DNA of 64,000 nt from Beijerinckiaceae bacterium (GTDB lineage Bacteria > Pseudomonadota > Alphaproteobacteria > Rhizobiales > Beijerinckiaceae): the NCBI GenBank assembly GCA_019745195.1, contig JAIETL010000051.1:1-64000 (forward strand). The letters run 5' to 3'. The translations under genes were made by a program, and so were the position numbers. The notes under the pieces were generated by a model, which saw only the letters and a list, made by a program, of their open reading frames with translations, made no database searches and was not told the DNA's origin. Shown here in pieces: positions 23,186-41,341 of this stretch (its first letter is position 1; every line of letters starts with the position of its first letter).

Positions 23186-23893
23186 GTGACCCATGCGCGT
23201 CGGCCGCGCCAACTTGACGATCTGACCGATATCCCTTTGTTTCGCCACATCGAGCCGTCGGTTGCGGAGGCATACGGATCGCAAGCGGTCTGGATGACAG
23301 CCAACCCGGGCAAGCTGATCCTCGACTTCAAGGACCTGACGAGCGACGTTTTTTTCATCCTGTCGGGACGAGTGCGTGTCGTCGTCCGAACGCCGGGCGG
23401 ACAGGAATTGATCCTCACCGATATCGCCGCCGGCTCCTTCTTCGGCGAAATGGCCGCTATCGATGGCGCACCGCGTTCGGCTTGCGTGACGGCGCTGGTC
23501 CGCACGCGATTCTGCAAGTTGCCGGGCAGAGCCTTCATGCAGATTCTTGCCGAGGCGCCTGAACTGGCCAAGGAGATCATGCAGGTTATGGTCGTCCGCA
23601 TCCGTGAACTGACGCAACGCCTGTTCGAGCTCAGCCACCTCGACATCCGGCATCGTCTGCATGCCGAACTGTTGCGAGCGGCAGGGCCGCCCGGACCGCT
23701 GGGCGAACGCGTCATATCGCCACCGCCGCTCCAACAGATACTTGCCGCACGCGTCGGCGCTAGGCGGGAGCCTGTTTCGCGCGAGATCGCCCGATTGATC
23801 CGAGAGGGCACGCTCGCCCGCACACGCGGAGCACTGATCATCCGCCAGCCGCAGATACTAGAATACGGGCTCGTTTCGGCCATGCAGGATTGA
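23186..23893 (+). CDS. Crp/Fnr-family cyclic nucleotide-binding transcriptional regulator (GTG start)
   Basis: cNMP domain IPLFRHIEPSVAEAYG...VFFILSGRVRVVVRTPGGQELILTDIAAGSFFGEMAAIDGAPRSA; C-terminal HTH ILAARVGARREPVSREIARLIREG. Confidence 0.88.
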   Translation: MTHARRPRQLDDLTDIPLFRHIEPSVAEAYGSQAVWMTANPGKLILDFKDLTSDVFFILSGRVRVVVRTPGGQELILTDIAAGSFFGEMAAIDGAPRSACVTALVRTRFCKLPGRAFMQILAEAPELAKEIMQVMVVRIRELTQRLFELSHLDIRHRLHAELLRAAGPPGPLGERVISPPPLQQILAARVGARREPVSREIARLIREGTLARTRGALIIRQPQILEYGLVSAMQD

Positions 23894-24148: not shown

Positions 24149-25099
24149 ATGAATCGCCGCCGTCTCCTCGCCGGCGCCGCCGCGCTTTGCCTGTCGCCCG
24201 CCGCGCTGGCGCAACCCGCTTCGCCGCCGCTGATCGGATGGTTGCGTACCAACGCCGTCGAGCAGCCGCCGGGCGAGTCCCTACGGCGCTCGCTTGCCCG
24301 TCATGGATTGGAGGAGGGACGCGACTACCGCCTGTCGTTGAAAAACACCGGTGGCGACAACGCGCTATTTCCTGCGCTTGCGCGCGAGCTTGCGCAGGAG
24401 CGGGCGGCGATCGTCGTGGCCTTCGGAGCGCTGGCGGCGCAAGCCGTGCTGGCGGAGGCCAAAGACACACCCGTCGTCGGCACGGGCGATCTCGTCGGCT
24501 TCGGCCTGGCTCGGAGCCTGCCACGGCCCGGCGGCAACGTAACGGGGGTCAACATCCTTGCGAACGAACTCGACCTGAAAAAGTTCGAGATCCTGCGCGA
24601 GCTTCTTCCCGACGCCCGCCGCGCCGCCTTCATCTACGACGCCAGCGTGACGCGCGACGATGTAGCGCCGCGTTCGACGGCGGCCAAACTCGGTCTGGCG
24701 CTGGAGACCTATCCCGTCTCGAACGTCTCTGGCTTGGAGGTCGCCTTTGCGCAAGCGGCAATTGGCGCGCCCGTCCTCAATGTTGGCAATGGTCCCATGA
24801 TCGCGCAGAACCGCCAGCTCGTGGTCGATCAATTGCGTCGCCATCGTTTGGCCGGCGTGTGCGAATGGCGCGAGATGGCGGAGGCGGGCTGCCTCGCGAG
24901 CTACGGCTTCGCTTATGACGATCTGGTCGGCCTAGCGGCTGACTATGCCGCGCGTATCCTGCGCGGGGCAAAGCCGGCCGATCTTCCCATCACTGCGCCA
25001 ACCCGGTTGCAATTGGTCATCAATATGAAGGTGGCGCGCGAACTCGGACTGACCATCCCCGAGGCAATGCTCGCCCGCGCCGACGAGGTGATCGAATGA
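24149..25099 (+). CDS. ABC transporter substrate-binding protein (TrpX/ABC_sub_bind family), array member 1
   Basis: MNRRRLLAGAAALCLSPAALAQ signal; RPGGNVTGVN; GAKPADLPITAPTRLQLVINMKVARELGLTIPEAMLARADEVIE*. Confidence 0.9.
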   Translation: MNRRRLLAGAAALCLSPAALAQPASPPLIGWLRTNAVEQPPGESLRRSLARHGLEEGRDYRLSLKNTGGDNALFPALARELAQERAAIVVAFGALAAQAVLAEAKDTPVVGTGDLVGFGLARSLPRPGGNVTGVNILANELDLKKFEILRELLPDARRAAFIYDASVTRDDVAPRSTAAKLGLALETYPVSNVSGLEVAFAQAAIGAPVLNVGNGPMIAQNRQLVVDQLRRHRLAGVCEWREMAEAGCLASYGFAYDDLVGLAADYAARILRGAKPADLPITAPTRLQLVINMKVARELGLTIPEAMLARADEVIE

Positions 25100-26046
25100 A
25101 TCGCCGCCGTCTCCTGGCCGGCGCCGCCGCGCTCTGCCTGTCGCCCGTCGCGCTCGCCCAGCCGGCCGCGCCGCCGCTGATCGGCTGGCTGCGCACCAAC
25201 GCTGCGGAGCAACCGCCCGGCGGATCGCTGCGGATCGCGCTTGCCCGACATGGCTTGCGCGACGGTCGCGACTATCGCCTGACGCTGAAGAACACTGGCG
25301 GCGATAACGCCCGCTTTCCCGCGCTTGCGCGCGAACTCGTGCAGGAGCGGGCGTCGCTCGTGATCGCCTTCGGCTCGGTGGCGGTGCGCGCCATGCTTGC
25401 CGAGACAAAAGATATCCCCGTCGTTGGAACCGGCGACCTTGTCAGCCTCGGTTTCGCTCAGAGCACCGCCCGGCCCGGCGGCAATGTGACCGGCGTCAAT
25501 ATCTCCGCGCCCGAGCTCGACCTCAAGAAGCTGGAAGTTTTACGCGAGCTTCTCCCCTCCGCCCGCAGCGCCGCCTTTGTTTATGACGCCAGCGTCACCC
25601 CCGACGACGTCGCACCGCGCGCAACAGCGGCCAAGCTTGGCTTGATGCTCGACAGCCATCCCGTGTCGAACGCCGCCGGCATAGAGGCGGCTTTCGCCCG
25701 CGCGGCCGGCCGGGTGGCCGCCATCAATGTCGGCAACGCGCCGCTGCTCGCGCAGAACCGTCAGTTCATTGTCGATCTGCTGCGCCGCCATCGCCTGGCC
25801 GGCATCTGCGAATGGCGCGAGATGGCTGAAGCCGGCTGCCTGGCGAGCTACGGCTTCGTCCTCGACGATCTGGTCGGCCTGGCGGCGGACTACGCCGCCC
25901 GGGTTTTGCGGGGCGCCAAGGCGGGCGATCTGCCAATTATCGCGCCGACCCGACTGCAGCTTGTCATCAACATGAAGGTGGCGCGCGAACTCGGACTGAC
26001 CATCCCCGAGGCGATGCTCGCCCGCGCCGACGAGGTGATCGAATGA
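25096..26046 (+). CDS. ABC_sub_bind substrate-binding protein, array member 2
   Basis: 316 aa, same length as and close paralog of member 1; ATGA overlap with upstream gene. Confidence 0.9.
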   Translation: MNRRRLLAGAAALCLSPVALAQPAAPPLIGWLRTNAAEQPPGGSLRIALARHGLRDGRDYRLTLKNTGGDNARFPALARELVQERASLVIAFGSVAVRAMLAETKDIPVVGTGDLVSLGFAQSTARPGGNVTGVNISAPELDLKKLEVLRELLPSARSAAFVYDASVTPDDVAPRATAAKLGLMLDSHPVSNAAGIEAAFARAAGRVAAINVGNAPLLAQNRQFIVDLLRRHRLAGICEWREMAEAGCLASYGFVLDDLVGLAADYAARVLRGAKAGDLPIIAPTRLQLVINMKVARELGLTIPEAMLARADEVIE

Positions 26047-27023
26047 TCGGGCGAAGGGAATTGCTCGGCTTTCTGGCTGGCGCGGGCTGCCTCGCGGCTC
26101 CAGCGCGCGCGCAGGAGCGCGTGCGCCGCGTCGCGCTGATGATGTCGGTCGCCGAGAGCGATCCTGACTTCCAGCGGCGGATCGAGGTCTTCAGGACGGA
26201 ACTCGCCCGTCTCGGCTGGGTCGAGGGCCGCAACCTGCGCATCGACATCCGCTGGGCAGGCGGCGATCTGGAGCGCGCCGCCCGCAACGCCGCCGAACTC
26301 GTCGCGCTGTCACCCGACGTCGCGGTGGTGAACGGCACGCCGACACTGTTGGCCAGCCGCGAGGCGACGCGGGGCCTGCCGGTCGTGTTCGTCATGATCA
26401 GCGACCCGGTCGGCCAAGGCCTAGTGTCGAATTTGAGCCGGCCAGGCGGGCTGTTGACCGGCTTCGTCAACTACGAGTTCGACAACGCCGGCAAATGGCT
26501 CGAGATGCTGACTGCGCTCGAACCGGCCCTCCAGCGCGCCGTCTTCCTATATAATCCGGCAAGCCCTTCGTCTGCGCGTTTCCTTTCGGCGGTCGAAGCC
26601 GCAGTTCGGCCGCTTGGCATGGCGCTGGAGGCCGCGCCCTTCCGCGACGCCGATAGCGTCGACGCTGCGCTCGCCGGTTTCGCCAGAGCCAAGGCCGGTT
26701 TGATCGTGCAGCCCGACCTTCTCACCTCGACCCACCGCGTCAGAATCGTGACGGCGGCCGCACGGTTGCGCTTGCCAGCGGTCTATCCGTTCCGCCACTT
26801 CGTCGATGTCGGCGGGTTGATCTCGCTAGGCGTCGATATCAGCGATCTCTACCGTAGTGCCGCCGGCTATGCGAACCTTATCCTGCGTGGCGAAAAGCCC
26901 GGCGACCTGCCCGTGCAGTATCCAACGAGATTCGAAATGGTGGTCAACCTGAACGCCGCCAGAGCGCTCGGGCTGACCGTTCCGTCGGACCTCATGGCCC
27001 GTGCCGACGAGGTGATCGAATGA
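26043..27023 (+). CDS. ABC_sub_bind substrate-binding protein, array member 3
   Basis: MIGRRELLGFLAGAGCLAAPARAQ; LGWVEGRNLRIDIRWAGG; ends ARADEVIE*. Confidence 0.9.
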   Translation: MIGRRELLGFLAGAGCLAAPARAQERVRRVALMMSVAESDPDFQRRIEVFRTELARLGWVEGRNLRIDIRWAGGDLERAARNAAELVALSPDVAVVNGTPTLLASREATRGLPVVFVMISDPVGQGLVSNLSRPGGLLTGFVNYEFDNAGKWLEMLTALEPALQRAVFLYNPASPSSARFLSAVEAAVRPLGMALEAAPFRDADSVDAALAGFARAKAGLIVQPDLLTSTHRVRIVTAAARLRLPAVYPFRHFVDVGGLISLGVDISDLYRSAAGYANLILRGEKPGDLPVQYPTRFEMVVNLNAARALGLTVPSDLMARADEVIE

Positions 27024-27997
27024 TCCGGCGGCGCACCTTTCTGGCGGGGGCGACCGCCGCTGTCGCGGCGTCCCCTTCGCGCGGGCAGCAGCCCACGCGG
27101 CCGGTCGTGGGCTATATCGGCCTATCGCTCAGCGTGCGGCAGCGCTGGCTCGCGGCGTTCCGTGACGGCCTGGCGTCGGAAGGGTTCGTGGAAGGGCGGA
27201 ACGTCGCCATCGAGTATCGCGACGCAGGCGACGGCAACGAGCGCATCCCCGAGCTGCTGGCGGATCTGATCGGGCGCAGGGTCGCAGCGGTTGCGACGAC
27301 AGGGACCGCGGCCGCACTCGCGGCGCAGCGCGCGACGACGACCATCCCGATCGTGTTTGCGATTCCCGCCGACCCCGTGCGCATCGGCCTAGTGCGTAGC
27401 CTGAATCGGCCGGGCGGGAACGTGACCGGCGTGACGTTCCTGGTGACCGAACTGATCCCGAAGCGTTTCGCGCTGCTGCAAGAACTTCTGCCGGCGGCCA
27501 GGCGCATTGCGGTGCTGGTCAATCCCGCCAACCGGGACACGATGGAGCCCGCGATCCGCGAGGCCGTCGCCGTGAGCACGCGGCTGGGCCTTGAAACGCG
27601 CGTCGTATCGGCGAGTACGGCGGCGGGGATCGTCACCGCCTTCGCGGATGCCGAGGGATGGGGCGCCGAAGCGCTGTTTCTAGGTGGCGACCCCTTCTTC
27701 AACAGTGAACGGACGCTGATCGCGGCCGAGGCGGCGCGGCGCACGCTGCCCGCCAACTATCACCTGCGCGACTATGTCGATGCCGGCGGCCTGATGAGCT
27801 ACGGCCCGGACCTCGCCGACAGCAATCGTCAGGCCGGCGTCTATGTGGGCCGCATCCTGAAGGGCGAGAGGCCGGCCGACCTGCCCGTGGTGCAGCCCGT
27901 CAGGTTCGAGCTTGTCATCAACCTGAAGACGGCGAAGGCGCTGGGGCTGGCTGTCCCATCGACGCTGATCGTCCAAGCCGATGAGTTGATCGAATGA
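27020..27997 (+). CDS. ABC_sub_bind substrate-binding protein, array member 4
   Basis: MIRRRTFLAGATAAVAASPSRGQQ; RPGGNVTGVTFLVTELIPKRFALLQELLPAARRIAVLVNP; ends QADELIE*. Confidence 0.9.
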   Translation: MIRRRTFLAGATAAVAASPSRGQQPTRPVVGYIGLSLSVRQRWLAAFRDGLASEGFVEGRNVAIEYRDAGDGNERIPELLADLIGRRVAAVATTGTAAALAAQRATTTIPIVFAIPADPVRIGLVRSLNRPGGNVTGVTFLVTELIPKRFALLQELLPAARRIAVLVNPANRDTMEPAIREAVAVSTRLGLETRVVSASTAAGIVTAFADAEGWGAEALFLGGDPFFNSERTLIAAEAARRTLPANYHLRDYVDAGGLMSYGPDLADSNRQAGVYVGRILKGERPADLPVVQPVRFELVINLKTAKALGLAVPSTLIVQADELIE

Positions 27998-28977
27998 TTG
28001 GCCGGCGCACATTTCTCGCGGGAGCGGCCGCCGTGCCTCTGACGATCGCAGCCGAGGCCCAGCCGCGACGGCCTCTGCTCGGTGTGCTGCTCACCGGCAA
28101 CGAGCGCGCGGGCGCCGGATACGAGTGGTCCGGCCCGCTGCGTCGGGCGCTCGCCGCGCTCGGCTGGGTCGAGGGCCGGACGATCGACATCGCCGTGAGG
28201 CAGGCCGACAATCAGTTCGAGCGCCTGCCGAGCTTGGCTGCTCAACTGGTGATGTTGAAGCCGGACGTCATCCTGACGCATGGCGGCACGGGCAGCCGCG
28301 CCGCCGCCGAGGCAACGGCGAGCATCCCGATCGTGGTCGGGGCGGCGAGCGAGGAGGCGATCCTCGCCTATGCCGGCAATCTGTCCCGTCCCGCTCGCAA
28401 TCTCACTGGTCTTAGCCTCGTCTCGGTGGAGCAGCATGCGAAATGCATCGAGCTTTACGAGGAGATGCAGCCCGGACAGCGCAGGATCGGCGTCCTCGTC
28501 AATCCATTCAGTCAGGCCTACCGGGATTTCCCCTCTTCCCTTGTAGAGCTATTGCCCAATCGCGCGCGTGACGTGACGCGCGTCGAGGCCCATGACGTCG
28601 CGACGGTGGAGATGGCCGGAGCCGCGCTGCAGGCATGGCGAGCCGACGGCTTGCTGGTCACCTCCGATCCCGCCTTTAACCAACCGCCGATCGACCATGC
28701 GCTCGCCGCGCTTGCGACGAGGGGAATCGGGGCGATCGGCACCTTCGACGCGCTTCCCCGTGCGGGCGGACTGTTCTCGCTCGGAGCCAGCTATCCAGCC
28801 CTCGCGCTACGGGCGGCCGTCTATGTCGATCGTATCCTGAAGGGGGTGAGACCCGCCGACTTGCCGGTTGAGCGACCGACCACGTTCACGACGGTAATCA
28901 ACCTGCGGACGGCGAAGACACTCGGCATCGACATCCCTGCTTCGCTGATCGCCCGCGCCGACGAGGTGATCGAATGA
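27994..28977 (+). CDS. ABC_sub_bind substrate-binding protein, array member 5
   Basis: MIGRRTFLAGAAAVPLTIAAEAQ; LGWVEGRTIDIAVRQAD; ends ARADEVIE*. Confidence 0.88.
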   Translation: MIGRRTFLAGAAAVPLTIAAEAQPRRPLLGVLLTGNERAGAGYEWSGPLRRALAALGWVEGRTIDIAVRQADNQFERLPSLAAQLVMLKPDVILTHGGTGSRAAAEATASIPIVVGAASEEAILAYAGNLSRPARNLTGLSLVSVEQHAKCIELYEEMQPGQRRIGVLVNPFSQAYRDFPSSLVELLPNRARDVTRVEAHDVATVEMAGAALQAWRADGLLVTSDPAFNQPPIDHALAALATRGIGAIGTFDALPRAGGLFSLGASYPALALRAAVYVDRILKGVRPADLPVERPTTFTTVINLRTAKTLGIDIPASLIARADEVIE

Positions 28978-29960
28978 GCGCCGATCTGACGCGACGTGCG
29001 TTGGGAGGCGCGGCCGCCGGCCTATGGATGGTCACTGCAGCGGACGCACAGACGCGGCTGCCGCCGGTTATCGGCTTCCTTAACAGCCGGACGCCGGCCG
29101 ATGCAGCCGGTGTGGTGCAATCGTTTCAGCGCGGGCTCGCTGAAACCGGTTACGTCGAGGGGCGCGATGTCCGCATCGATTACCGATGGTCAGATGGCTA
29201 TGAGCGCCTCGCGCTCATGGCGAGGGAACTCGTCGAGTCGGCCGTGGACGTGCTTTTCGCCGCCGGGAGCTCGGCGTCGGCTCAGGCCGCGAAGGAGGCG
29301 ACCGCGAGCATTCCCGTGGTCTTCGCCATCGGACAGGATCCCGTCGCGCTGGGGCTCGTTGAGACGCTCGCCCGTCCGGGCCGCAACGTCACCGGCGCGC
29401 AGGTGCAGGCAGGCGCACTCGCGCCCAAGCATCTCGAAATGCTTCGCGAACTCTCGCCGAACTCGACCGAATTCGGGGCGGTGCTTAATGCCGCCAACCC
29501 AGGACTGCGCAGCATGGAAATCGAGATTGTCGCGGCGGCCCGCGAGGCGCGGGTCGCGATGACGACATTGCACATCGCCAACGAGGACGAACTGGACGCC
29601 GCGTTCGCACGGTTCGCGGGGCTTGGCGTCGGCGGCGTTATCGTCGGCGCTGAAGGCTGGTTTGTAAGCCGGCGGCAGGCGACTGCGGCGCTGGCCGCCA
29701 AGCACCGTCTCGTCACCATTCATCATCAGCGAGAATTCGTGGAGGCCGGCGCGCTCGTCAGCGTGGGTGCGAGCCTGCTCGATGCATACCGTCAGGGTGG
29801 GCGCTATGTCGGCCGGATTTTGAAAGGCGAGAATCCGGCCGTTCTGCCGGTCGTACGTAATGACCGTTTCGAAATCGCCATCAACCTAAAGACGGCGAGA
29901 AGCTTGGGTCTTTCGATCCCGCCTGCCGTCCTCGCCCGTGCCGACGAGGTGATCGAATGA
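28974..29960 (+). CDS. ABC_sub_bind substrate-binding protein, array member 6
   Basis: GFLNSRTPADAAGVVQSFQRGLAETGYVEGRDVRIDYRW; ends ARADEVIE*. Confidence 0.9.
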   Translation: MSADLTRRALGGAAAGLWMVTAADAQTRLPPVIGFLNSRTPADAAGVVQSFQRGLAETGYVEGRDVRIDYRWSDGYERLALMARELVESAVDVLFAAGSSASAQAAKEATASIPVVFAIGQDPVALGLVETLARPGRNVTGAQVQAGALAPKHLEMLRELSPNSTEFGAVLNAANPGLRSMEIEIVAAAREARVAMTTLHIANEDELDAAFARFAGLGVGGVIVGAEGWFVSRRQATAALAAKHRLVTIHHQREFVEAGALVSVGASLLDAYRQGGRYVGRILKGENPAVLPVVRNDRFEIAINLKTARSLGLSIPPAVLARADEVIE

Positions 29961-30949
29961 GTATCGTCAACCGTCGTCGCGCTCTTGCGCTCCTCGCCAT
30001 GACCGGCGTCCCGTCGGGAGCGATCGCACAGCCTTCCACAGGCCGCCGGCTGGTCGGCGCTCTGCTGTCCCAGTCAGCCGACGATCCAGAAGGGCAGGCC
30101 CGGCTGAACGCCTTCCGGGACGGCCTGCGGATGCTCGGATGGATCCAAGGCGTGAACTTGGAATTCGATATACGCTGGTCGAACGGAGATGCCGGGCGGT
30201 TGCAACGGTCGGCCCGCGAGCTGGCCGCGCTCGCTCCCGCCGCGATTCTCGCCAGCGCGACGACGGCATTGGTGGCCCTCAAGGATGCGACCACAACCGT
30301 GCCGATTATCTTCGCGCAGGTAACCGATCCGGTCGGCCTCGGCGTCGTTGCGAGCCTGGCGCGGCCGGGAGGCAACATCACCGGCGTGACCCAGCACGAC
30401 TTTACGGTCGGCGCTAAATGGGTGGAACTGCTGCGGCAACTCAGCCCGAACGTGGATCGTGTCGGAATCTTCTTCGATCCCAGCAACCCTGCCAATGAGG
30501 GCTATGTCGAGGCGGCAGGGTCCGTAGCGTTGGGTTTTGACATGCGCATCTCGCCGATCCCCGTTCGCACCGCTCAAGCGCTAGGGGACCAGACGCGCTA
30601 CTTCGGCGCGTCGCCGGGCGGCGGCGTCATTCTCCTGCCGGGCCCGCTCGGTGCGGCCAACCGCGACATCTTCATCGCCGAGGCGAATGCGGCCCGGATG
30701 CCCAGCGTTTTCGCCTTTCGTTACCATGTGTTGAGCGGCGGCCTCGCCTGTTACGGCGTCGAGAACATCGCGCTCTATCGCCAGGCCGCGCGGCTGGCGG
30801 ACCGGGTGCTGCGCGGGGAACGGCCGGCCGTTCTGCCGGTCGAGAACGGCGACGCTTTCCGGCTGGTGTTGAACCTGCATACCGCGAAACTCATCGGTCT
30901 CGACCTGCCGCCGTCGATTCTTGCCAGAGCCGACGAGGTGATCGAATGA
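29957..30949 (+). CDS. ABC_sub_bind substrate-binding protein, array member 7
   Basis: MLGWIQGVNLEFDIRWSNGD; RPGGNITGVTQHDFTVGAKWVELLRQLSPNVDRVGIFFDP; ends ARADEVIE*. Confidence 0.9.
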   Translation: MSIVNRRRALALLAMTGVPSGAIAQPSTGRRLVGALLSQSADDPEGQARLNAFRDGLRMLGWIQGVNLEFDIRWSNGDAGRLQRSARELAALAPAAILASATTALVALKDATTTVPIIFAQVTDPVGLGVVASLARPGGNITGVTQHDFTVGAKWVELLRQLSPNVDRVGIFFDPSNPANEGYVEAAGSVALGFDMRISPIPVRTAQALGDQTRYFGASPGGGVILLPGPLGAANRDIFIAEANAARMPSVFAFRYHVLSGGLACYGVENIALYRQAARLADRVLRGERPAVLPVENGDAFRLVLNLHTAKLIGLDLPPSILARADEVIE

Positions 30950-31932
30950 TAGCGCGCAGGTACACCTTGATGCTTCTCGGCGGCGCCTTGGGGTCTGCCG
31001 TCATCCCGCTCGCGGCACAAACCCGTCGCCTGCCGCAGGTCGTGTTAGTGCTCGGCACCGCGCCAGCAAACGCCATCATCGGCGCTGCACCAAAGGCTGC
31101 GTTCGTGCGCAGTTTCGTTGAAGGCCTGGCGGAAGCTGGCTGGATCGACGGCTCTAACGTTACGATTGAGCGGCGTTCGGCCGAAGGTGATCCGGGACGC
31201 GCGCGCGCGATCCTGGCCGAGGTGCTCGCACGCGCGCCCGACGTGATCGCCGTAGGCGGCGAGCGCTGGCTCATCGACGCAGCCCGCGGCGCCACGCGGA
31301 CGATCCCGATCGTCGCCAACCTCGTCGATGATCCGGTCGCCAGCGGGCTGGTCGCAAGCCTGGCGCGCCCCGGCGGCAATCTCACGGGGATCACCGAAGC
31401 GACGGGGCCGGAATTCGACGGCAAGCGGCTGCAGTTGCTGCGCGAGATGGCGCCGGCGGCATACCGCATCGCCTTCATCGCCTCGTCGAGGCGGCTTGAC
31501 CAGTTCCACGCGGTGCCGCTTCCGCCGAGAGTCTCGATCCTGCCCGCGCGCCTCGACACGCTGGGGGAGTTGGAGGCCGCGTTCGCCGCAATCGCAGACG
31601 GCGCGGTACAAGGGCTAATGGTTTCCAATGACGGCCCGACCTATTTTGGCCTGCCGCGTATCGTCGCTTTCGCAGCGGCCCAGCGCCTGCCGGCGATCTA
31701 TGCCGTCCGCGACGGCGTCGATGCCGGCGGGCTGATGAGCTACGGCGCCGTCAACCGTTTTGCACAGATCGCGCGGATGGCAGCGAGATTCCTCGACGGC
31801 GCCAAGCCCGGCGATGTGCCGGTCGAACAACCTACCCAGTTCCGGCTCGCTATCAATGCCAAGGCGGCCGCCTCGCTCGGCCTCGACATGCCGAGGGCGC
31901 TCGCGGCACAAGCCGACGAGGTGATCGAATGA
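30946..31932 (+). CDS. ABC_sub_bind substrate-binding protein, array member 8
   Basis: MIARRYTLMLLGGALGSAVIPLAAQ; RPGGNLTGITEATGPEFDGKRLQLLREMAP; ends AQADEVIE*. Confidence 0.88.
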   Translation: MIARRYTLMLLGGALGSAVIPLAAQTRRLPQVVLVLGTAPANAIIGAAPKAAFVRSFVEGLAEAGWIDGSNVTIERRSAEGDPGRARAILAEVLARAPDVIAVGGERWLIDAARGATRTIPIVANLVDDPVASGLVASLARPGGNLTGITEATGPEFDGKRLQLLREMAPAAYRIAFIASSRRLDQFHAVPLPPRVSILPARLDTLGELEAAFAAIADGAVQGLMVSNDGPTYFGLPRIVAFAAAQRLPAIYAVRDGVDAGGLMSYGAVNRFAQIARMAARFLDGAKPGDVPVEQPTQFRLAINAKAAASLGLDMPRALAAQADEVIE

Positions 31933-32900
31933 TCTGTCGGCGCGCCTTCCTGGCCGGCGGCCTCGCGGCTGGGGCGATGCGACTCGCGCAAGCACAGTCG
32001 CCGCCGGTCGTCGGTTATCTCGGGCTTTCGACGCCGGACGGCGATCGCGCCGCGCTCGATGCGTTGCGGAGCGGTCTCGCGAGCTTGGGCCGCGAGGATG
32101 GCCGCAACATCGTAATCCTCGCACGCCACGCCGCCGGCGACATGGCGCTGGCGGAGGAGTTCATGGCAGAGATGGTGGCGGCGCGGGCGACCGTGGTCGT
32201 CGCGCCCGGCCAGGCCGCCACGCGGGCGCTGCGGCGCCGGACGACGTTGCCCGTCGTCTCGATGGGGCTGCCGCCGAGCGATCCGCAACTTTTCGCGAGT
32301 CTGGCCCGGCCAGGCGGTACAGTCACTGGCTTCGCCGATTTCGGCGACGAACTCGCTGCCAAGCGGATCGAAGTGCTGAAGGAAACCATTCCGGGGCTCT
32401 CGCTGATCGGCGTCCTGCACAATGGCATCGATCCGACCTTCAAGCGGTGGGGCGAGCAGGCCAGGGCACAGGCGGAAAATCAGGGCTTGCGCGCCGTGTC
32501 GTTGCCTCTGTCGACGAGCGCAGAGGCGGAAGTCGGCGCGCTCGTCGGGGGCCTCGCGGCGGGCGGCGGGCAGGCGCTCGTTGTAGTGCGCGATTTCCTC
32601 ACTTCGGCGGTGATCGCCGCTACGGCCGCCGCCGGCATGGCGCGCGGCATCGCCGTTTGCGGCGAACAAACTTCCTGGCCCGAGGGCGGCGCGCTGATGA
32701 GCTATGGACCCGATTTCCACGACCTTTTCCGTCGCGCCGCCCTCTATGTCGATCGCATCCTGAAGGGCGAGAAGGCAGGCGACCTGCCGATTCAACGTCC
32801 GACCAAGATTGAGTTCGTGATCAATCAGGAGACTGCGCGGCGGTTGCATCTGGTCCTACCGACCGCCATCATGCTGCAAGCTGACCGGGTCATCGAATGA
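31929..32900 (+). CDS. ABC_sub_bind substrate-binding protein, array member 9
   Basis: MICRRAFLAGGLAAGAMRLAQAQ; RPGGTVTGFADFGDELAAKRIEVLKETIPG; ends QADRVIE*. Confidence 0.88.
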   Translation: MICRRAFLAGGLAAGAMRLAQAQSPPVVGYLGLSTPDGDRAALDALRSGLASLGREDGRNIVILARHAAGDMALAEEFMAEMVAARATVVVAPGQAATRALRRRTTLPVVSMGLPPSDPQLFASLARPGGTVTGFADFGDELAAKRIEVLKETIPGLSLIGVLHNGIDPTFKRWGEQARAQAENQGLRAVSLPLSTSAEAEVGALVGGLAAGGGQALVVVRDFLTSAVIAATAAAGMARGIAVCGEQTSWPEGGALMSYGPDFHDLFRRAALYVDRILKGEKAGDLPIQRPTKIEFVINQETARRLHLVLPTAIMLQADRVIE

Positions 32901-35311
32901 AGGACGCCATCGCCGGAGCGGCCAATATTGACACCGCGGCGCCACAGGAGCCGCGTAGCCTCGCCAGGCGCTACATGCTCTGGCTGATCGCGCTGGTCGG
33001 CGTGCTCCTGACTTTGACATCTGGCCTCAACGCCTGGCTGTCCTACCGTCAGGCAAGCGAGGCGGCGGCGCGCCTGCAGGACGACAAGGCCGATGCAGCC
33101 GCCCAGCGCATCGCCGAGTTCATCGCCGAGATCGAGCGGCAGATCGGCTGGACGACCCATGTGCAATGGGATTTCGGCTCGGTCGAACAGCGCCGGCTCG
33201 ATTATATCCGTCTGCTGCGCCAGGTGCCGGCGATCTCGGAGCTGGTGCAGCTCGACCGCGAGGGCAAGGAGCAGCTCAAGGTGTCCCGGCTCTCGGTCGA
33301 CGTAGTCGGCTCTGGGCAGGACTACTCAGCGGATCCGCGCTTCACCGAGGCGCTGGCCAGCCGGGTGCGCTTCAGTCCGGTCTATTTCCGCAAAGAATCA
33401 GAGCCGTTCCTGAGCCTGTCGGTCGCGCGCGGCGGCCGCCAGCCCGGCGTCACCATCGCAGAGGTCAACCTCAAGCTGATCTGGGATGTCGTGAACACCA
33501 TCCGGATCGGCGAAACGGGCTACGCCTACGCCGTCGATGGCAAGGGCCGACTAATCGCGCATCCCGACATCAGCCAGGTTCTCAGGAACAGCGATCTATC
33601 GACGGCGCCGCAGGTGCGGGTGGCACTGGCGAGGATCGAGGGACGGCCCGATTCCGCTGAAGGCGCCGTCGTGTCGGGCCATGACCTCCAGCACCGCGCC
33701 GTCCTGGCCGCCTACGCCACGATCCCGAAACTGAAATGGGCCGTCTTCGTCGAGCAGCCCGCGCGCGAGGCGCTGGCGCCGCTGTACGCTGCGCTGCTGC
33801 GCAATCTTGGCTTGCTCGCAGTCGGCCTTGTCGTCGCGGCTTTAGCCGCCTACGCGCTGGCGCGCCGCATGGTGGTGCCAATCCAGGAACTCTCGGCGAG
33901 CGCCGCCAGGCTCGGCGCGGGCGACCTCGCGCATCGCGTCGAGCCGCGCCAGGGTTCGGGCGCCGAGATCGCCGCACTGGCGAAAAACTTCAACGCCATG
34001 GGCGCCCAGCTTCAGGAGAGCTATGCCGGGCTCGAGGCCAAGGTCGAAGCGCGCACGCAGGAACTGGCGCGATCCATTGGCGAGCTTCGGGCGCTTGCCG
34101 AGGTCGGCCGCGCTGTCTCATCCACGCTCGACCTCAGGCTGGTCCTCGACACCATCGTGACCCACGCCGTCGGTCTCGCCGGGGCCGAGGCTGGCGCGAT
34201 CTATCGCTATCGCCGATCGTCGGAGGCCTTCTGGCTGGCCGGCATGACGGGCGGCGACCATTTTCCCGACGAGATAGCTCGGGACACGTTCAGCAGTCGC
34301 ATGGCGATCGGTAATGCCCTCGCAAGCCGCGAAACCATTCAGATTCCCGACATGGCCACCTTGCCGCCCTTCCCGGTGCGCGACCGCACGCTCGCGGCCG
34401 GCTTCCGGGCGGTGCTGGTGACACCGCTCGTCTTCGGTGAGCGCGTGCACGGCATGCTCGTTCTGCAGCGCCGCGCCGCCGGCGCCTTCGAGCCATCCGT
34501 GGTGGAGGCGATGGAGGCCTTCGCGACGCAGTCCGCCATCGCCATCCAGAATGCTCGCCTGTTTCGTGAGATTGAGGAGAAGGGACGTCAATTGGAGGTC
34601 GCCAGCCAGCATAAATCGCAGTTCCTAGCCAATATGAGCCATGAGCTGCGCACGCCCCTCAACGCCATCCTAGGCTATGCCGAACTAATGGCCGACGGCA
34701 TCTATGGCGACCTTCCAGACAAGCCGCGCGAGGTGTTGGCGCGCATCCAGGCGAACGGCAAGCATTTGCTTGGACTCATCAACGACGTGCTCGACCTGTC
34801 CAAAATCGAGGCGGGCCAGTTCGAACTGCGCCTCGAACGCTACACCATGCGGACGCTCGTCGATGCGGCTGTCGCTTCGGCCGAGCCGCTCGCCACGGCC
34901 AAGGGCCTGTCTCTTGCGGTCGATGTCGCCGAGGGCTTGCCGGCCGGTCTGGGGGACACGCAGCGGCTCGCGCAAGTGCTGCTCAATCTCGTGGGCAATT
35001 CAATCAAGTTCACGGAACGTGGCGGCGTAACGCTGACCTGCCGGTTCGACGACCGGCGCTTTCACGTCGCCGTCGCTGACACAGGTTCGGGCATCGCCAC
35101 GGAGGACCAGGCCGCGATCTTCGAGGAGTTCAAGCAGGTCGACAATTCGAGCACGCGCAACAAGGGGGGCACCGGCCTCGGCCTCGCAATTTCCCGTCGC
35201 ATCGCCAGGCTACACGGTGGCGACATCTCCTTATCGTCGGAACTTGGCGTCGGTTCGGTCTTCACGCTCGTCGTCCCTGTAGATGCAGAGCCTCTCGAGG
35301 AAGCAGCATGA
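32897..35311 (+). CDS. membrane histidine kinase: periplasmic Cache-like sensor, HAMP, GAF, HisKA, HATPase
   Basis: 804 aa; TM MLWLIALVGVLLTLTSGL; VNTIRIGETGYAYAVDGKGRLIAHPDISQVL (Cache); KSQFLANMSHELRTPLNAILGYAELM (H-box); GGTGLGLAISRRIARLHGG. Confidence 0.92.
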   Translation: MKDAIAGAANIDTAAPQEPRSLARRYMLWLIALVGVLLTLTSGLNAWLSYRQASEAAARLQDDKADAAAQRIAEFIAEIERQIGWTTHVQWDFGSVEQRRLDYIRLLRQVPAISELVQLDREGKEQLKVSRLSVDVVGSGQDYSADPRFTEALASRVRFSPVYFRKESEPFLSLSVARGGRQPGVTIAEVNLKLIWDVVNTIRIGETGYAYAVDGKGRLIAHPDISQVLRNSDLSTAPQVRVALARIEGRPDSAEGAVVSGHDLQHRAVLAAYATIPKLKWAVFVEQPAREALAPLYAALLRNLGLLAVGLVVAALAAYALARRMVVPIQELSASAARLGAGDLAHRVEPRQGSGAEIAALAKNFNAMGAQLQESYAGLEAKVEARTQELARSIGELRALAEVGRAVSSTLDLRLVLDTIVTHAVGLAGAEAGAIYRYRRSSEAFWLAGMTGGDHFPDEIARDTFSSRMAIGNALASRETIQIPDMATLPPFPVRDRTLAAGFRAVLVTPLVFGERVHGMLVLQRRAAGAFEPSVVEAMEAFATQSAIAIQNARLFREIEEKGRQLEVASQHKSQFLANMSHELRTPLNAILGYAELMADGIYGDLPDKPREVLARIQANGKHLLGLINDVLDLSKIEAGQFELRLERYTMRTLVDAAVASAEPLATAKGLSLAVDVAEGLPAGLGDTQRLAQVLLNLVGNSIKFTERGGVTLTCRFDDRRFHVAVADTGSGIATEDQAAIFEEFKQVDNSSTRNKGGTGLGLAISRRIARLHGGDISLSSELGVGSVFTLVVPVDAEPLEEAA

Positions 35312-35673
35312 CGAAACGCATTCTGATTGTTGAAGATACGCTCGACAACCGGCAGATCATGCGCGACCTTCTGACCAGCAGCGGTTACGAATGCCATGAA
35401 GCGGTCGATGGCCTGCAGGGCGTCGAGATGGCGAGCACCGTCAGCCCTGACCTCATCCTGATGGACATCCAGTTGCCGAAGCTTGACGGCTACGACACCA
35501 CCAGGCGCATCAAGGCCGACCCGGCGACGGCCGCGATCCCGATCATCGCGGTCACGTCCTACGCGCTCAGCGGCGACGAGCTGAAGGCGCGTGCCGCCGG
35601 TTGCGACGACTATCTCTCGAAACCGTTCAGCCCCCGCGAACTCCTGGCGCATGTGCGCCGCTTCCTAGGCTGA
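35308..35673 (+). CDS. single-domain CheY/DivK-like response regulator
   Basis: MTKRILIVEDTLDNRQIMRDLL...LILMDIQLPKLDGYDTTRRIKAD...SKPFSPREL. Confidence 0.92.
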   Translation: MTKRILIVEDTLDNRQIMRDLLTSSGYECHEAVDGLQGVEMASTVSPDLILMDIQLPKLDGYDTTRRIKADPATAAIPIIAVTSYALSGDELKARAAGCDDYLSKPFSPRELLAHVRRFLG

Positions 35674-35681
35674 GCCAGCCG

Positions 35682-36815
35682 ATGCGCAACAGGCCCCTCA
35701 TCCTCGTGGTCGATGATGTGCCCGACAACATCGAAATCGCGCGCTTGAGGCTCGAAAGCCAGGGATATCTGGTTGAGTCTGCCGCCGATGGGGAGGAAGC
35801 GCTGCTGAAAACCGCCCAGCTGCGACCCGATCTGCTGCTGCTGGACGTGATGATGCCAAAACTCGACGGGCTCGAGACAGTCCGGCGCCTGAAGGCCGAT
35901 CCTTCGCTGCCCTTCATCCCGGTGATCCTGCTCACTGCCAAATCGGATCTTGCCGAGGTCGTGCGCGGGCTCGACGCGGGAGCCGACGACTACCTGACGA
36001 AACCCTTCGACCACGCAGCGCTGCTCGCCCGTGTGCGCGCGATGCTACGCATCAAGTCTTTGACCGATCAGGTCCGACAGCAGGCGAGCGAATTGGCCGA
36101 CATCAACGCGACGTTGGAGCAACGCGTCGCCGCGCAGGTCGGCGAAATCGAGCGCGTCGGCCGGTTGAAGCGCTTCCTGCCTCCGGAGATCGTCGGCATC
36201 GTCCTCGCCGAAGGTGCGGAGTCGCTGCTCGATAGCCATCGACGGGACATTGCCGTCCTGTTCTGCGATCTGCGCGGGTTCACCGCCTTCACCGAGGCGG
36301 CCGAGCCAGAGGAGGTAATGCGGGTGCTCGGCGACTATCACGCCGCACTCGGCCCGCTGGTCCGGCGCTTCGAGGGAACGCTCGACCATTTCGCCGGCGA
36401 CGGCATCATGGTGTTCTTCAACGATCCCGTGCCGTGCGCAGACCCCGAGCTTCGGGCCGTGAACCTCGCCGACGCCATCCGCGAGGCGATGCGCGAGCTG
36501 TCGACGCGCTGGCGCCGGCGCGGATACGTTCTGGGTTGCGGCATCGGTATCGCCCAGGGCTTCGCCACGCTCGGCCGCATCGGATTTGCCGACCGCATGG
36601 ACTACGCGGCTATCGGCACGGTGACCAATCTCGCCGCCCGGCTGTGCGCCGAGGCGGCAGACGGTCAGATCCTTGTCAGCGAGCGCATTGCAGCAGCCGT
36701 GGAGGGCAGCTTCGCGCTGAGTCCGGTTGGTGGCATTACGCTCAAAGGCATCACGCGCCCTGTGCTCGTGCATGACGTTCGTGGTCGGGTCGCACCGGCC
36801 AGCGAGTTGGCATGA
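35682..36815 (+). CDS. response regulator receiver fused to class III nucleotidyl cyclase domain
   Basis: ATG at 35682 (MRNRPLILVVDDVPDNIEIARL); LFCDLRGFTAFTEAAEPEEVM, DHFAGDGIMVFFNDPVPCADPEL, DRMDYAAIGTVTNLAARLC. Confidence 0.92.
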   Translation: MRNRPLILVVDDVPDNIEIARLRLESQGYLVESAADGEEALLKTAQLRPDLLLLDVMMPKLDGLETVRRLKADPSLPFIPVILLTAKSDLAEVVRGLDAGADDYLTKPFDHAALLARVRAMLRIKSLTDQVRQQASELADINATLEQRVAAQVGEIERVGRLKRFLPPEIVGIVLAEGAESLLDSHRRDIAVLFCDLRGFTAFTEAAEPEEVMRVLGDYHAALGPLVRRFEGTLDHFAGDGIMVFFNDPVPCADPELRAVNLADAIREAMRELSTRWRRRGYVLGCGIGIAQGFATLGRIGFADRMDYAAIGTVTNLAARLCAEAADGQILVSERIAAAVEGSFALSPVGGITLKGITRPVLVHDVRGRVAPASELA

Positions 36816-37330
36816 TGACGGACTTCGCGCCAACGCCGGAGACCGACGCGATGCGCCGTGAGCGGGTTGAGTTCCTCAGAAGCGCGGTTGCTTTCGCGGA
36901 AGCTGGCATCCGTTCCTTCGACGCGAAGGCGCAGATCGCGCTTGCGGCTTTCGTGCTCTCCTTCGGGCCGTTGCTGTCCATCATCAGCGACGTCGCCGGC
37001 GATTCCGCAAAGCCCCTCATGGCGGGCTGCGGCTCGCTCTACGTCGTCGCCATCGGCTGCTTCCTGCATGTGCTTTGGCCTGTGGCTGCATCAGGCGCCG
37101 CGAAGCAGCGCAAAGGTGCTTTCTATCCGCGATTGGATGAGAGACTCGACGCGACGTCCTATCGCCTGCGCGTCGAGGAAATGGAGATCGAGAACGAGCT
37201 TGCACAAGAGGTCCTGGCGCTGACGCGGATCCGTTCGATCAAGGGGCGACGGTTCCGTGTGGCCGTGCTCACGGCCGGGGTTTTCTATGCGGCCTGCCTG
37301 GCAGCGATCCATGTCTCGCTTCTGCGGTAA
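36812..37330 (+). CDS. small multi-TM protein resembling Pycsar-effector TM / SLATT-type proteins
   Basis: 172 aa; ATGA overlap with cyclase; SFDAKAQIALAAFVLSFGPLLSII then a second hydrophobic hairpin and a C-terminal TM (FRVAVLTAGVFYAACLAAIHVSLL); DxKA before TM1. Confidence 0.6.
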   Translation: MMTDFAPTPETDAMRRERVEFLRSAVAFAEAGIRSFDAKAQIALAAFVLSFGPLLSIISDVAGDSAKPLMAGCGSLYVVAIGCFLHVLWPVAASGAAKQRKGAFYPRLDERLDATSYRLRVEEMEIENELAQEVLALTRIRSIKGRRFRVAVLTAGVFYAACLAAIHVSLLR

Positions 37331-37381
37331 TCCCGTCGAGCAATCGGCGCTGGCTCACGCTGCTTCGATGCAGCGCAGCCG

Positions 37382-40300
37382 ATGAGCCCGCTGTTCGGCT
37401 ATATCTGGCGCAACAGCCGCGGCGAGCAGGCCCGCATCCTGACTATCGTGCTTGCCTCTCTGCCGTTCTACTATCTGTCGCTCGAACTGCCGAAATACAT
37501 CGTATCCGACGCGATCCAGGGACGAGCCTTTCGCGACGGACAGGCAACCGCGCAACTGCTGCGGTTTGATTTCTCCCTGCCGACCTGGCTTGGCAGCAAG
37601 CGGCTGATCCTCGATGGCTTTGCGCTCGATCGGCTTGGCTATCTATTAGCGCTTTCGGGTTTCTTCCTGCTGCTTGTGTTGGTCAATGGCGGCTTCAAAT
37701 ACGTCGTCAACATGCGCAAGGGCGCGCTCGGCGAGCGGCTGCTGCAACGCCTGCGCTTCGATCTCTTTTCGAGCCTGCTCCGGCTCACGCCCGAAGCCGC
37801 CCGGCACATCAAGCCGTCGGAAGCCGCGACCATCATCAAGGATGAGGTCGAGCCCATCGGCGGTTTCGTTGGCGACGCGTTCGTGCAGCCCTTCTTCTGC
37901 GGCGGCCAGGCGCTCACCGCTCTTGCCTTCATCCTTCTCCAGAGTCTGCCGCTCGGGATGATAGCGGCGGCGACGGTGCTCACGCAGGCCATTATCATTC
38001 CACGCCTGCGCCATGAGCAACTGCGTCTCGCCAAGCAGCGTCAACTGGCGTCGCGCGCATTGGCCGGCAAGATCGGCGAGGTGGTCGAGGCGCTGGGCGA
38101 GGTCGCCAATCACGGCACGCAGGCGCTGGAACGCGACCAGATCGCGCGCAGGCTCGAAGCCCTGTTCGGCATCCGCTACCGGCTCTATGGCCGCAAATTC
38201 GCGGTCAAGCTGCTCAACAACCTGATCGCGCAGGCGGCACCCTTCCTGTTTTACAGCATCGGTGGCTATTATGCACTGACGGGCCAGCTCGACATCGGCC
38301 AATTGGTCGCCGTGATCGCCGCCTATCGCGACCTGCCGCCACCGATCAAGGACCTGATCGACTGGGATCAGCAACGGCTCGACGCGGAAGCAAAATTCCA
38401 GCAGGTCGCAGATCAATTTGCCTTCGCCGAGCCCGAGAAGGAGGGGCCTTCGGCGCAGGCCTTGCCATCGCCGGCTGCCGGGCTCGATCCCGACGGCGCG
38501 ATCCAGATTACAGGCTTGAGCGTCGTCGGCCCATCCGGCGACCATCTGCTGGACCGTGTGTCGCTGACGCTGCCGCTCGGTCAGAGTATCCTACTAGCTG
38601 ACCGAAGCGGAGAGGGCGCGGCGACGCTGGCGCAGGTTCTAGGTGGCCGCATCACCAGCTATGCCGGCGTCGTGACACTTCCCGGGGAAGCCTGGACGCG
38701 ACCCGACGCGCAGGAAAGCCGGCGTGCAATTGCCTATATCGGCCCTGAGGCGACGATCATGGACCGTAGTCTCCGGGACAACATCATCTATGGTCTGCGC
38801 CGCGTTCCGGCATCGGGCGATCGCGGCAATGCACCGGCGGGAGAAACAGATCCCAGCGCCGAGACGCTCGATCTCTCGCTCGCTGGTTGCGACGACGCGG
38901 CCGGGCTGACGCGGCGACTGATCTCGACGCTGCGAACGACGGGGCTCGACGATCTGGTCTTTCGCTTCGGGCTGGCGCGCCGACTCAGCCCCGCGGCCGC
39001 AGGCCCGATCGCGCGCGACATCGCCGCCATCCGGGCGCGGATCCGACACAGGCTGGGCGCGCTCGGAGCCGCTGGCGCTATCGAGCCTTACGAACCGCAG
39101 CGCTATATCCGCAACGGCTCGATCGCCGAGAATCTGCTGTTCGGTTGGCCGATCGACCCAACGCTGACGGTCGATCGTCTGGCGGGCCACGCTTTCGTCG
39201 GCGACGTCCTCGAGCAGACCCGTCTGGCGGAGCCGCTGATCGAATTGGGACGCCGCATTGCCGCGACGATGCTGGAGATCTTCGAAGGCCTGCCGCCCGA
39301 CCATATGCTCTTCGAGCAGTTTGCATTCTTCTCGGCAGATGCGTTTCCAGCCTACAGGGAGATTCTGGTGCGTCTTGCCGGCAGTCGGGCCGGCGCGGCC
39401 GATCTCGCTCAGTTGACGGGACTTGCAATGCTTTATTGCGAGCCGCGTCATCGCCTCGGATTTCTCGACGAGGCTCTCGAACAACACATCGTCACGGTGC
39501 GCGGGATCATTCATCGGGAGCCGACCCCGGACTTCCGCAGATTGGTCGCCTTCTTCAACCCGCTGCAATTCTGCGATGCGGCGCCGCTGCTGGACAATCT
39601 CCTGTTTGGCGCGATCGTTCCGCAAGCATCCTCTGCGCAGGAGCGGATCATGGCGGCGATCCGCGAGGCGCTGAGCGACCTCGGCCTGGTCGAACAGGTT
39701 TTCGAACTGGGGCTCGACCAGCAAGCCGGCTATGGCGGGCGCCTCCTGTTTCCAGCCGCGAGAGGTGCGGTGGCGTTGGCCCGAAGCCTGATCCGGCAGC
39801 CCCAGGTCCTGATTCTCAACGACGCGCTCAGTGCTCTCGGGCAGATCGAGGCGGCAGAGACGCTCGCGCGCATCCAGGCGGAAATGGCGGGGCGAACCCT
39901 GATCGTGACGGGGCGCAACGTCGCCAATGTCGTGGGGGTGGATCTGCGGGTCGACTTCGCCGACGCTAGAGTTGCATCGGTCACAAAGATGGCGTCCGGC
40001 GAGGCGCTTGTGGTGGAACAGACGCCGCCTACCGCGCTGAACCTGCGGGAGAGTGAGGACCTGCGCGCGCTGAGGGCAGTTGACCTATTCGCCGGGATCG
40101 ACACGCCGCGCCTGCGGTTGCTGGCGTTCACAAGCACGCGCGTGAACTTCAAAGCGGGCGAGTTAATGTGTCGCCAGGGTGAGAGCTCAGACACCGCCTA
40201 TATCGTACTTTCGGGAACCGCCGACGTGCTTATCGCGACCGCTGATGGTGCCACGATCACCTCGATCATCGGACAGAACGCCATCATCGGCGAAATAGGC

Positions 40301-40501
40301 ATCGTGACCGGTGAACCGCGCTCAGCCACAATAATTGCGCACAGCGACATGACAACGTTGCGTTTGCGGAAAGAGATTTTCCTGGCCCTGCTCGTAGAGT
40401 TCCCGCAAGTCGGGCTCTCAATTACGCGGCTGATGGTCAGGCGCCTCCAGGACAACATCGCCGCAGCCAGCAGCCGCGGCCACGGGAATCGACCCCAATG
40501 A
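37382..40501 (+). CDS. ABC exporter-like TM protein with degenerate nucleotide-binding domain and C-terminal cyclic nucleotide-binding domain
   Basis: 1039 aa; N-terminal TM region; ABC-like DHLLDRVSLTLPLGQSILLADRSGEGAATLAQVLGG and RGAVALARSLIRQPQVLILNDALSALGQIEAAETL; C-terminal CNB NFKAGELMCRQGESSDTAYIVLSGTADVLIA...IIGEIGIVTGEPRSATIIA. Confidence 0.85.
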   Translation: MSPLFGYIWRNSRGEQARILTIVLASLPFYYLSLELPKYIVSDAIQGRAFRDGQATAQLLRFDFSLPTWLGSKRLILDGFALDRLGYLLALSGFFLLLVLVNGGFKYVVNMRKGALGERLLQRLRFDLFSSLLRLTPEAARHIKPSEAATIIKDEVEPIGGFVGDAFVQPFFCGGQALTALAFILLQSLPLGMIAAATVLTQAIIIPRLRHEQLRLAKQRQLASRALAGKIGEVVEALGEVANHGTQALERDQIARRLEALFGIRYRLYGRKFAVKLLNNLIAQAAPFLFYSIGGYYALTGQLDIGQLVAVIAAYRDLPPPIKDLIDWDQQRLDAEAKFQQVADQFAFAEPEKEGPSAQALPSPAAGLDPDGAIQITGLSVVGPSGDHLLDRVSLTLPLGQSILLADRSGEGAATLAQVLGGRITSYAGVVTLPGEAWTRPDAQESRRAIAYIGPEATIMDRSLRDNIIYGLRRVPASGDRGNAPAGETDPSAETLDLSLAGCDDAAGLTRRLISTLRTTGLDDLVFRFGLARRLSPAAAGPIARDIAAIRARIRHRLGALGAAGAIEPYEPQRYIRNGSIAENLLFGWPIDPTLTVDRLAGHAFVGDVLEQTRLAEPLIELGRRIAATMLEIFEGLPPDHMLFEQFAFFSADAFPAYREILVRLAGSRAGAADLAQLTGLAMLYCEPRHRLGFLDEALEQHIVTVRGIIHREPTPDFRRLVAFFNPLQFCDAAPLLDNLLFGAIVPQASSAQERIMAAIREALSDLGLVEQVFELGLDQQAGYGGRLLFPAARGAVALARSLIRQPQVLILNDALSALGQIEAAETLARIQAEMAGRTLIVTGRNVANVVGVDLRVDFADARVASVTKMASGEALVVEQTPPTALNLRESEDLRALRAVDLFAGIDTPRLRLLAFTSTRVNFKAGELMCRQGESSDTAYIVLSGTADVLIATADGATITSIIGQNAIIGEIGIVTGEPRSATIIAHSDMTTLRLRKEIFLALLVEFPQVGLSITRLMVRRLQDNIAAASSRGHGNRPQ

Positions 40502-41281: not shown

Positions 41282-41341
41282 CCAGGGAGCGATGAAACCG
41301 CGAAGGGTCAGCGCACCGACGAAGGTCGTTGTCTTCCAGTG

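Follow-up and report, generated by a model that had tools for sequence, protein, structure and literature searches.

The last gene of a putative operon in a Beijerinckiaceae genome encodes a protein, here named pABC-CNB, that is built as one half of an ABC type IV exporter, with a transmembrane domain (TMD) and a nucleotide-binding domain (NBD), followed by a C-terminal cyclic-nucleotide-binding (CNB) domain. A first-pass annotation, made from the sequence of the window alone (the whole 64,000-nucleotide stretch that was analysed), had reported eroded ATPase motifs and proposed a pseudo-ATPase that acts as a cyclic-nucleotide-responsive scaffold, channel or regulator rather than as a pump. This raises the question as to whether such a protein still depends on ATP or answers to a different input, and what its membrane part would then do. 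A description of the family (pABC) was not found in the open-access literature, most subscription journals lying outside the search, and the annotated records that were read name its members only as ABC transporter ATP-binding protein together with Crp/Fnr regulator or CNB protein.

Domain architecture and operon context

The open reading frame and the Walker A, signature, Walker B and H-loop motifs are as first annotated, every one of the motifs being degenerate (Table 1). Pfam recognises ABC_membrane at residues 86-313 (35.4 bits vs. a cut-off of 28), ABC_tran at residues 390-481 (33.4 bits vs. 25), a match confined to the front of the domain, and cNMP_binding (PF00027) at residues 921-1004 (67.6 bits vs. 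27.5). By the fold of its TMD and NBD, pABC-CNB belongs with the ABC type IV (ABCB-like) exporters; by its catalytic residues it does not. Nor is it of the HetC type, for which a C39 peptidase and an intact ATPase are diagnostic, and Pfam gives neither a C39 nor a TIR domain match in the protein.

pABC-CNB closes a run of 14 genes on one strand (24149-40501), nearly all joined by four-base overlaps, a layout that points to a single operon. No permease or ATPase belonging to the nine ABC_sub_bind genes is present in the operon. In Ancylobacter, the neighbours of a fused relative (L018) include an ABC_sub_bind gene and one for a dCache-HAMP-cyclase; together with the operon layout, this suggests that sensing of outside ligands lies upstream of pABC-CNB and feeds cyclic nucleotide to it, a direction that we infer. 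Just upstream of the operon is a gene for a CRP-family transcription factor with CNB and HTH_Crp_2 domains (23186-23893), and downstream of it one for an IS110-type transposase (41329-42441).

Table 1 Features of the operon and of pABC-CNB, in window coordinates
Feature	Coordinates	Strand	Remarks
Nine tandem ABC_sub_bind (PF04392) periplasmic binding protein genes	24149..32900	+	4-nt overlap each
dCache-HAMP-GAF histidine kinase	32897..35311	+	Pfam
Single-domain response regulator	35308..35673	+	Pfam
REC-cyclase: response-regulator receiver and class III nucleotide cyclase	35682..36815	+	FCDLRGFT, AGDGIMVFF and TNLAARL segments present
Small membrane protein, weakly PycTM-like (Pycsar effector)	36812..37330	+	Start overlaps REC-cyclase stop
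Pseudo-ABC exporter-CNB protein (pABC-CNB), 1039 aa	37382..40501	+	ATG start, ORF confirmed
ABC exporter TMD, residues 1-345	37382..38416	+	
NBD, front part, residues 372-448	38495..38725	+	
Degenerate Walker A, residues 407-415 (DRSGEGAAT)	38600..38626	+	
Q-loop/helical unit 1, residues 449-550 (SLRDNIIYG)	38726..39031	+	Q-loop Gln replaced by Pro455
Q-loop/helical unit 2, residues 551-700 (SIAENLLFG), inserted	39032..39481	+	
Q-loop/helical unit 3, residues 701-782 (PLLDNLLFG), inserted; continues into pre-signature segment	39482..39727	+	
NBD, rear part, residues 783-870	39728..39991	+	
Degenerate signature region, residues 788-803 (LLFPAARGAVALARSL)	39743..39790	+	
Degenerate Walker B, residues 809-819 (VLILNDALSAL)	39806..39838	+	
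Degenerate H-loop region, residues 841-851 (IVTGRNVANVV)	39902..39934	+	
CNB domain, residues 899-1023	40076..40450	+	
Phosphate-binding cassette, Glu971 to Arg980	40292..40321	+	

Catalytic motifs in the window protein and its family

Searches recovered homologues of pABC-CNB from 80 loci, almost all of them in Hyphomicrobiales. Of the genomes of the same family group, 40 of 99 have a homologue, as do 110 of 289 sampled alphaproteobacterial genomes; for the phylum the figure is 28 of 299, where all but one fall inside the class and the exception matches the TMD alone. One relative is encoded on pSymB of Sinorhizobium meliloti. Aligned with a canonical exporter from the same genome, the window protein has DRSGEGAA for GSTGSGKS in Walker A, Pro455 for the Q-loop Gln, LFPAA for LSGGE, VLILND for ILILDE in Walker B and Arg845 for the H-loop His. 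The first-pass annotation had asked for the same erosion in homologues, and a first alignment of 105 of them provides it: the Walker A Lys, the Q-loop Gln and the Walker B Glu are found in none, the signature glycines are almost gone, and the H-loop His is aligned in two. Loss across these 105 homologues rules out strain-specific decay of the motifs.

In a wider set of 169 homologues, the Walker A Lys is present in 31, the Glu in 22 and the His in 16, counts that depend slightly on the alignment, since on realignment two sequences of the first set gained a Lys (L117) or a Glu (L015). Partial retention is mostly confined to other alphaproteobacterial lineages, whose distant members keep a Walker A Lys, DE or HR, the position after a retained Lys being usually Glu or Asp. 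Homologues with canonical motifs had been named at the outset as the finding that would speak for degeneration in this strain only; some of these motifs do occur, but the complete set is absent from every sequence displayed, distant alphaproteobacterial relatives included. A quick tree of the TMD, the deep part of which is unsure owing to long branches, has at least 12 state changes for the Walker A Lys and at least 11 for the Glu, so that the catalytic motifs seem to have been lost repeatedly. The alignments support a view of pABC as pseudo-ATPases throughout the family. Degenerate sites of known exporters can still bind ATP.

Extra Q-loop/helical units interrupt the NBD

A feature overlooked by the first-pass annotation is that the NBD of pABC-CNB is split, with ~270 residues between the Q-loop and the signature. 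Walker A and the Q-loop lie within residues 372-480 and the stretch from signature to H-loop within residues 783-870, phmmer comparison with solved structures (ABCB1/ABCB4) placing the rear NBD at residues ~755 to ~865-870. The insert carries the Q-loop/helical segment, the part of the NBD that touches the TMD in ordinary exporters, two further times, giving three tandem units in all, with motifs at residues 463, 580 and 735. Profile comparison of the units with hhalign gave E-values of 1.4e-15 for units 2 and 3 (raw score 90), 1e-8 for units 1 and 3 (51) and 1e-5 for units 1 and 2 (38), with raw scores of at most 23 for decoys made by shuffling the columns of unit 3. A motif pattern for the unit finds three copies in 116 of the 169 homologues and two in 50, numbers that are valid inside the family only, because the pattern was derived from these very sequences and misses the Q-loop of the canonical control exporter.

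The NBD with its insert is predicted by AF2 at a pLDDT of 91 and a pTM of 0.89, and Foldseek matches of the predicted domain include Atm1-family exporters and, at a target TM-score of 0.72, the ATPase domain of TAP1. The full-length model (pLDDT 77), in which the CNB domain is poorly modelled and of low confidence, resembles ABC type IV exporters, with BmrCD, TmrAB and SUR2B among its fold matches. The comparison with ABC exporters proposed in the first-pass annotation thus returns an exporter fold, and pABC-CNB is predicted to have retained it.

Conservation and selection

The TMD is the most conserved part of pABC, with 101 of 345 columns at least 95% identical. Mean pairwise identity among 105 homologues is 63.5% in the TMD and 39-44% in the parts of the NBD; for the CNB domain, calculated on its own set of 90 sequences, it is 55.8%. 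In overlapping genomes, a canonical exporter has pairwise identities of 64.2% (TMD) and 75.7% (NBD), whereas pABC has 64.7% in the TMD, 40.9% in the NBD and 35.7% in the NBD core. The pABC TMD matches its canonical counterpart in degree of conservation; the NBD falls short of it. In four pairs of relatives, dN/dS lies between 0.05 and 0.15 in the TMD and between 0.17 and 0.27 in the NBD, and in Ancylobacter and Bosea relatives the ratio is well below 1 for all domains. The pABC protein is maintained under purifying selection, but its NBD has been freed from catalytic constraint.

The host genome also encodes two homologues of the pABC TMD alone (L130:3504-4865 and L131:4850-5860, contigs C70 and C35). 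Neither has an adjoining NBD gene, and in Pfam both match ABC_membrane only weakly and SbmA/BacA not at all; a similar protein occurs in another genome (L204). A further, more degraded subfamily of ~850-900 residues (L125, L127, L128 and L129) is without a linked CNB gene.

Linkage to CNB domains and class III cyclases

The CNB domain reported in the first-pass annotation is borne out by its Pfam score and by its ligand residues, the phosphate-binding Glu (Glu971 in the window protein) being kept in 83 of 90 family CNB domains and the Arg (Arg980) in 87. On these residues, pABC-CNB would be expected to bind cyclic nucleotide. The CNB domain of the cyanobacterial exporter HetC was not significantly protected by cAMP, and the ligand that it bound was ppGpp (PMC10986499), so a CNB domain by itself is no proof of a cyclic-nucleotide ligand.

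Also overlooked at first was that linkage to a CNB domain, fused or, more often, encoded by the next gene, spans the Alphaproteobacteria. The domain is fused in 28 of 191 loci and encoded just downstream in 149, in a count that includes near-duplicate loci and overlapping fetches and for which one initial search peptide lay in the CNB domain; the same linkage is seen in loci from genome searches with a profile spanning TMD and NBD (L146-L184). The 14 loci of the 191 without a CNB link are mostly TMD-only homologues, the further degenerate subfamily and contig ends, and a search of the retrieved flanks of L150 and L166, which partly retain motifs, revealed no linked CNB gene. The window protein is one of 11 fused proteins that form a clade with an SH-aLRT of 100, and the tree has three changes of the fused state.

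Class III cyclases lie near pABC genes far more often than chance, which makes for a strong genomic link. Across 36 genomes, at least 12 of 39 pABC genes have a cyclase within 10 kb, compared with 1.5 expected, and 1,000,000 random draws never exceeded 10, under a simple model that ignores contig ends and the relatedness of the genomes. Of the three class III cyclases of the host genome, two lie close to its two copies of pABC, less than 1.8 kb away (633 bp from the window pABC and 1714 bp from a paralogue on contig C1), and the single class III cyclase of a genome of the same genus is 1756 bp from pABC. With flanks of ~8 kb, a cyclase is present in just 37 of 79 loci.

Other neighbours recur as well. 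Within 8 kb, members of a MurG-like (GT28) cluster occur in 57 of the 79 loci and members of a GT4 cluster in 54, these clusters being loose single-linkage groups that hold some other proteins and were run through Pfam by representatives; pairing of pABC with glycosyltransferases recurs in other alphaproteobacterial lineages. The neighbourhood often includes a dual-NBD importer system, and two conserved neighbouring families are without a Pfam match. Such neighbours would fit an ancestral role of pABC in the handling of glycans or glycolipids of the envelope, a genomic setting that the window copy has left for another. The paralogue of the window copy (L124, G000:C1:110000-129000; 44% identity, separate CNB gene) lies in surroundings that are common among relatives, with glycosyltransferase-cluster genes and a membrane cyclase of a 2Fe-2S-bearing cluster as neighbours. 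A DUF3095 protein is encoded near pABC in L022 (15710-16858), and its cluster is found in 18 of the 79 loci.

A proposed cyclic-nucleotide switch and its alternatives

Since the parts that use ATP have been lost across the family while the TMD and the linked CNB domain have been kept, the input is likely a signal molecule, and pABC-CNB probably answers to such a molecule rather than to ATP. On balance, we favour a non-hydrolysing ABC-fold membrane protein that is switched by cyclic nucleotide. The NBD would survive as a scaffold enlarged by the extra Q-loop/helical copies; cyclic nucleotide from the nearby cyclase would bind the CNB domain, fused here and a separate adjoining gene product in most relatives; and the ligand-bound CNB domain would alter the NBD scaffold and, through it, the conformational state of the conserved TMD. 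In the window, an outside ligand may be sensed by the periplasmic binding proteins and/or the Cache domain, upon which the histidine kinase would phosphorylate the receiver domain of the cyclase, cyclic nucleotide would rise, and pABC-CNB, perhaps with the PycTM-like protein, would respond. Read from sequence, the motif loss, the predicted retention of the fold, the conserved ligand residues of the CNB domain, the linkage to CNB domains and cyclases, the layout of the operon and the purifying selection are the features behind this proposal, which would entail cyclic-nucleotide binding, dimerisation, TMD gating and the signalling direction given here. The idea of a pseudo-ATPase regulator responsive to cyclic nucleotide, put forward in the first-pass annotation, gains from the family-wide motif loss, the CNB residues and the cyclase link; distant relatives, which keep some of the motifs but in no displayed sequence all of them, count against it only in part.

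More specifically, and tentatively, pABC-CNB may be a cyclic-nucleotide-gated permease or channel in which, within the Alphaproteobacteria, a second messenger has replaced ATP and the NBD has been rebuilt by triplication of the segment that contacts the TMD. Given the strong conservation of the TMD, a gated permease is no less likely than its counterpart, a scaffold or receptor that only signals and does not transport, whose TMD would hold membrane partners (the histidine kinase, glycosyltransferases) and regulate them in response to cyclic nucleotide. Such a scaffold, a sub-reading that overlaps with the switched protein favoured above, is conceivable rather than probable. It would suit the absence of catalytic residues, the histidine kinase in the same operon, the glycosyltransferase genes near pABC in most relatives and the presence of SUR2B among the fold matches. 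SUR1/SUR2 and CFTR are ABC proteins that do not pump, the SUR subunits regulating channels. As in those proteins, an exporter fold would serve regulation or gating, but they keep nucleotide-binding NBDs, whereas pABC-CNB has a single NBD without catalytic residues and a CNB domain as its ligand domain. A further parallel is BceAB, which controls the kinase BceS. Its genes accompany those of a two-component system (BceRS), and it forms a sensory complex with BceS (PMC7828314), although it belongs to a different ABC class and is an active transporter. Two points tell against a pure scaffold: conservation of the TMD at the level of a canonical exporter seems more than docking would need, and the TMD-only homologues stand alone, with no NBD gene adjoining.

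Those TMD-only relatives (L130 and L131, in the same genome) indicate that the TMD can do without an NBD and, like the strict conservation of the TMD, speak for a secondary transporter. SbmA/BacA is thought to use the proton gradient with an exporter-type TMD, and pABC-CNB could similarly run on an energy source other than ATP, with cyclic nucleotide as the switch. The weak ABC_membrane match of L130 and L131 and their lack of an SbmA/BacA match in Pfam tell against this, and we regard it as rather doubtful.

That pABC-CNB still pumps, as a heterodimer energised by an unlinked canonical half-transporter, is less likely again. Heterodimeric exporters in which one of the two sites is degenerate have been described, such as BmrCD (PMC7828314), BmrCD and TmrAB are among the fold matches, and the host genome has 150 NBD matches among the matches listed. 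The degenerate half of such a pair, however, normally supplies a signature or a Walker A and pABC has neither, and its NBD is without the conservation that a catalytic partner keeps. The conserved ABC neighbours that were checked (cluster 5, 14 loci) are dual-NBD importer ATPases or fragments, save for one exporter-like neighbour in L185, and an adjacent canonical exporter half was rejected as the partner. With MsbA, the PCAT1 core, P-gp, BmrCD and TmrAB, pABC-CNB shares the TMD fold, the NBD fold and the order of the two; it differs in the family-wide loss of motifs, the extra Q-loop/helical units inside the NBD, a near-constant CNB partner and a TMD conserved above the NBD. HetC likewise has a CNB domain attached to an ABC exporter, but its CNB domain is N-terminal, it carries a C39 peptidase, and its ATPase is required for function (PMC10986499).

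An anti-phage module akin to Pycsar, in which infection triggers the cyclase and the PycTM-like protein and pABC-CNB act as cyclic-nucleotide-activated membrane effectors, is improbable. Pycsar systems (PycC with PycTM or PycTIR) also place a class III cyclase beside membrane and CNB-bearing proteins, and PycTM is described as a membrane pore-former (PMC11224242). PADLOC models match the REC-cyclase (PycC, E 4.8e-20), the CNB domain of pABC-CNB (PycTIR, E 8.6e-13) and the small membrane protein (PycTM, E 1.2e-7; Pfam PycTM E 0.0028, below the cut-off), but the PycC and PycTIR scores span general cyclase and CNB domains. The window further departs from Pycsar in having an ABC-fold protein in place of a TIR or PycTM effector; the receiver domain on the cyclase, the Cache histidine kinase in the operon and the nine binding proteins suggest environmental sensing, and in relatives pABC sits in glycosyltransferase clusters. 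Finally, a decaying pseudogene, to which the degeneracy of every catalytic motif might point, is rejected on an open frame of 1039 codons, dN/dS well below 1 in relatives and conservation across the Alphaproteobacteria.

If pABC-CNB is indeed controlled by cyclic nucleotide and independent of ATP, it would connect alphaproteobacterial cyclases with an effector other than a transcription factor and would illustrate how an exporter of the ABC class can give up ATP hydrolysis and still be kept by selection. The graded loss of motifs across its relatives provides a ready series for asking which residues matter.
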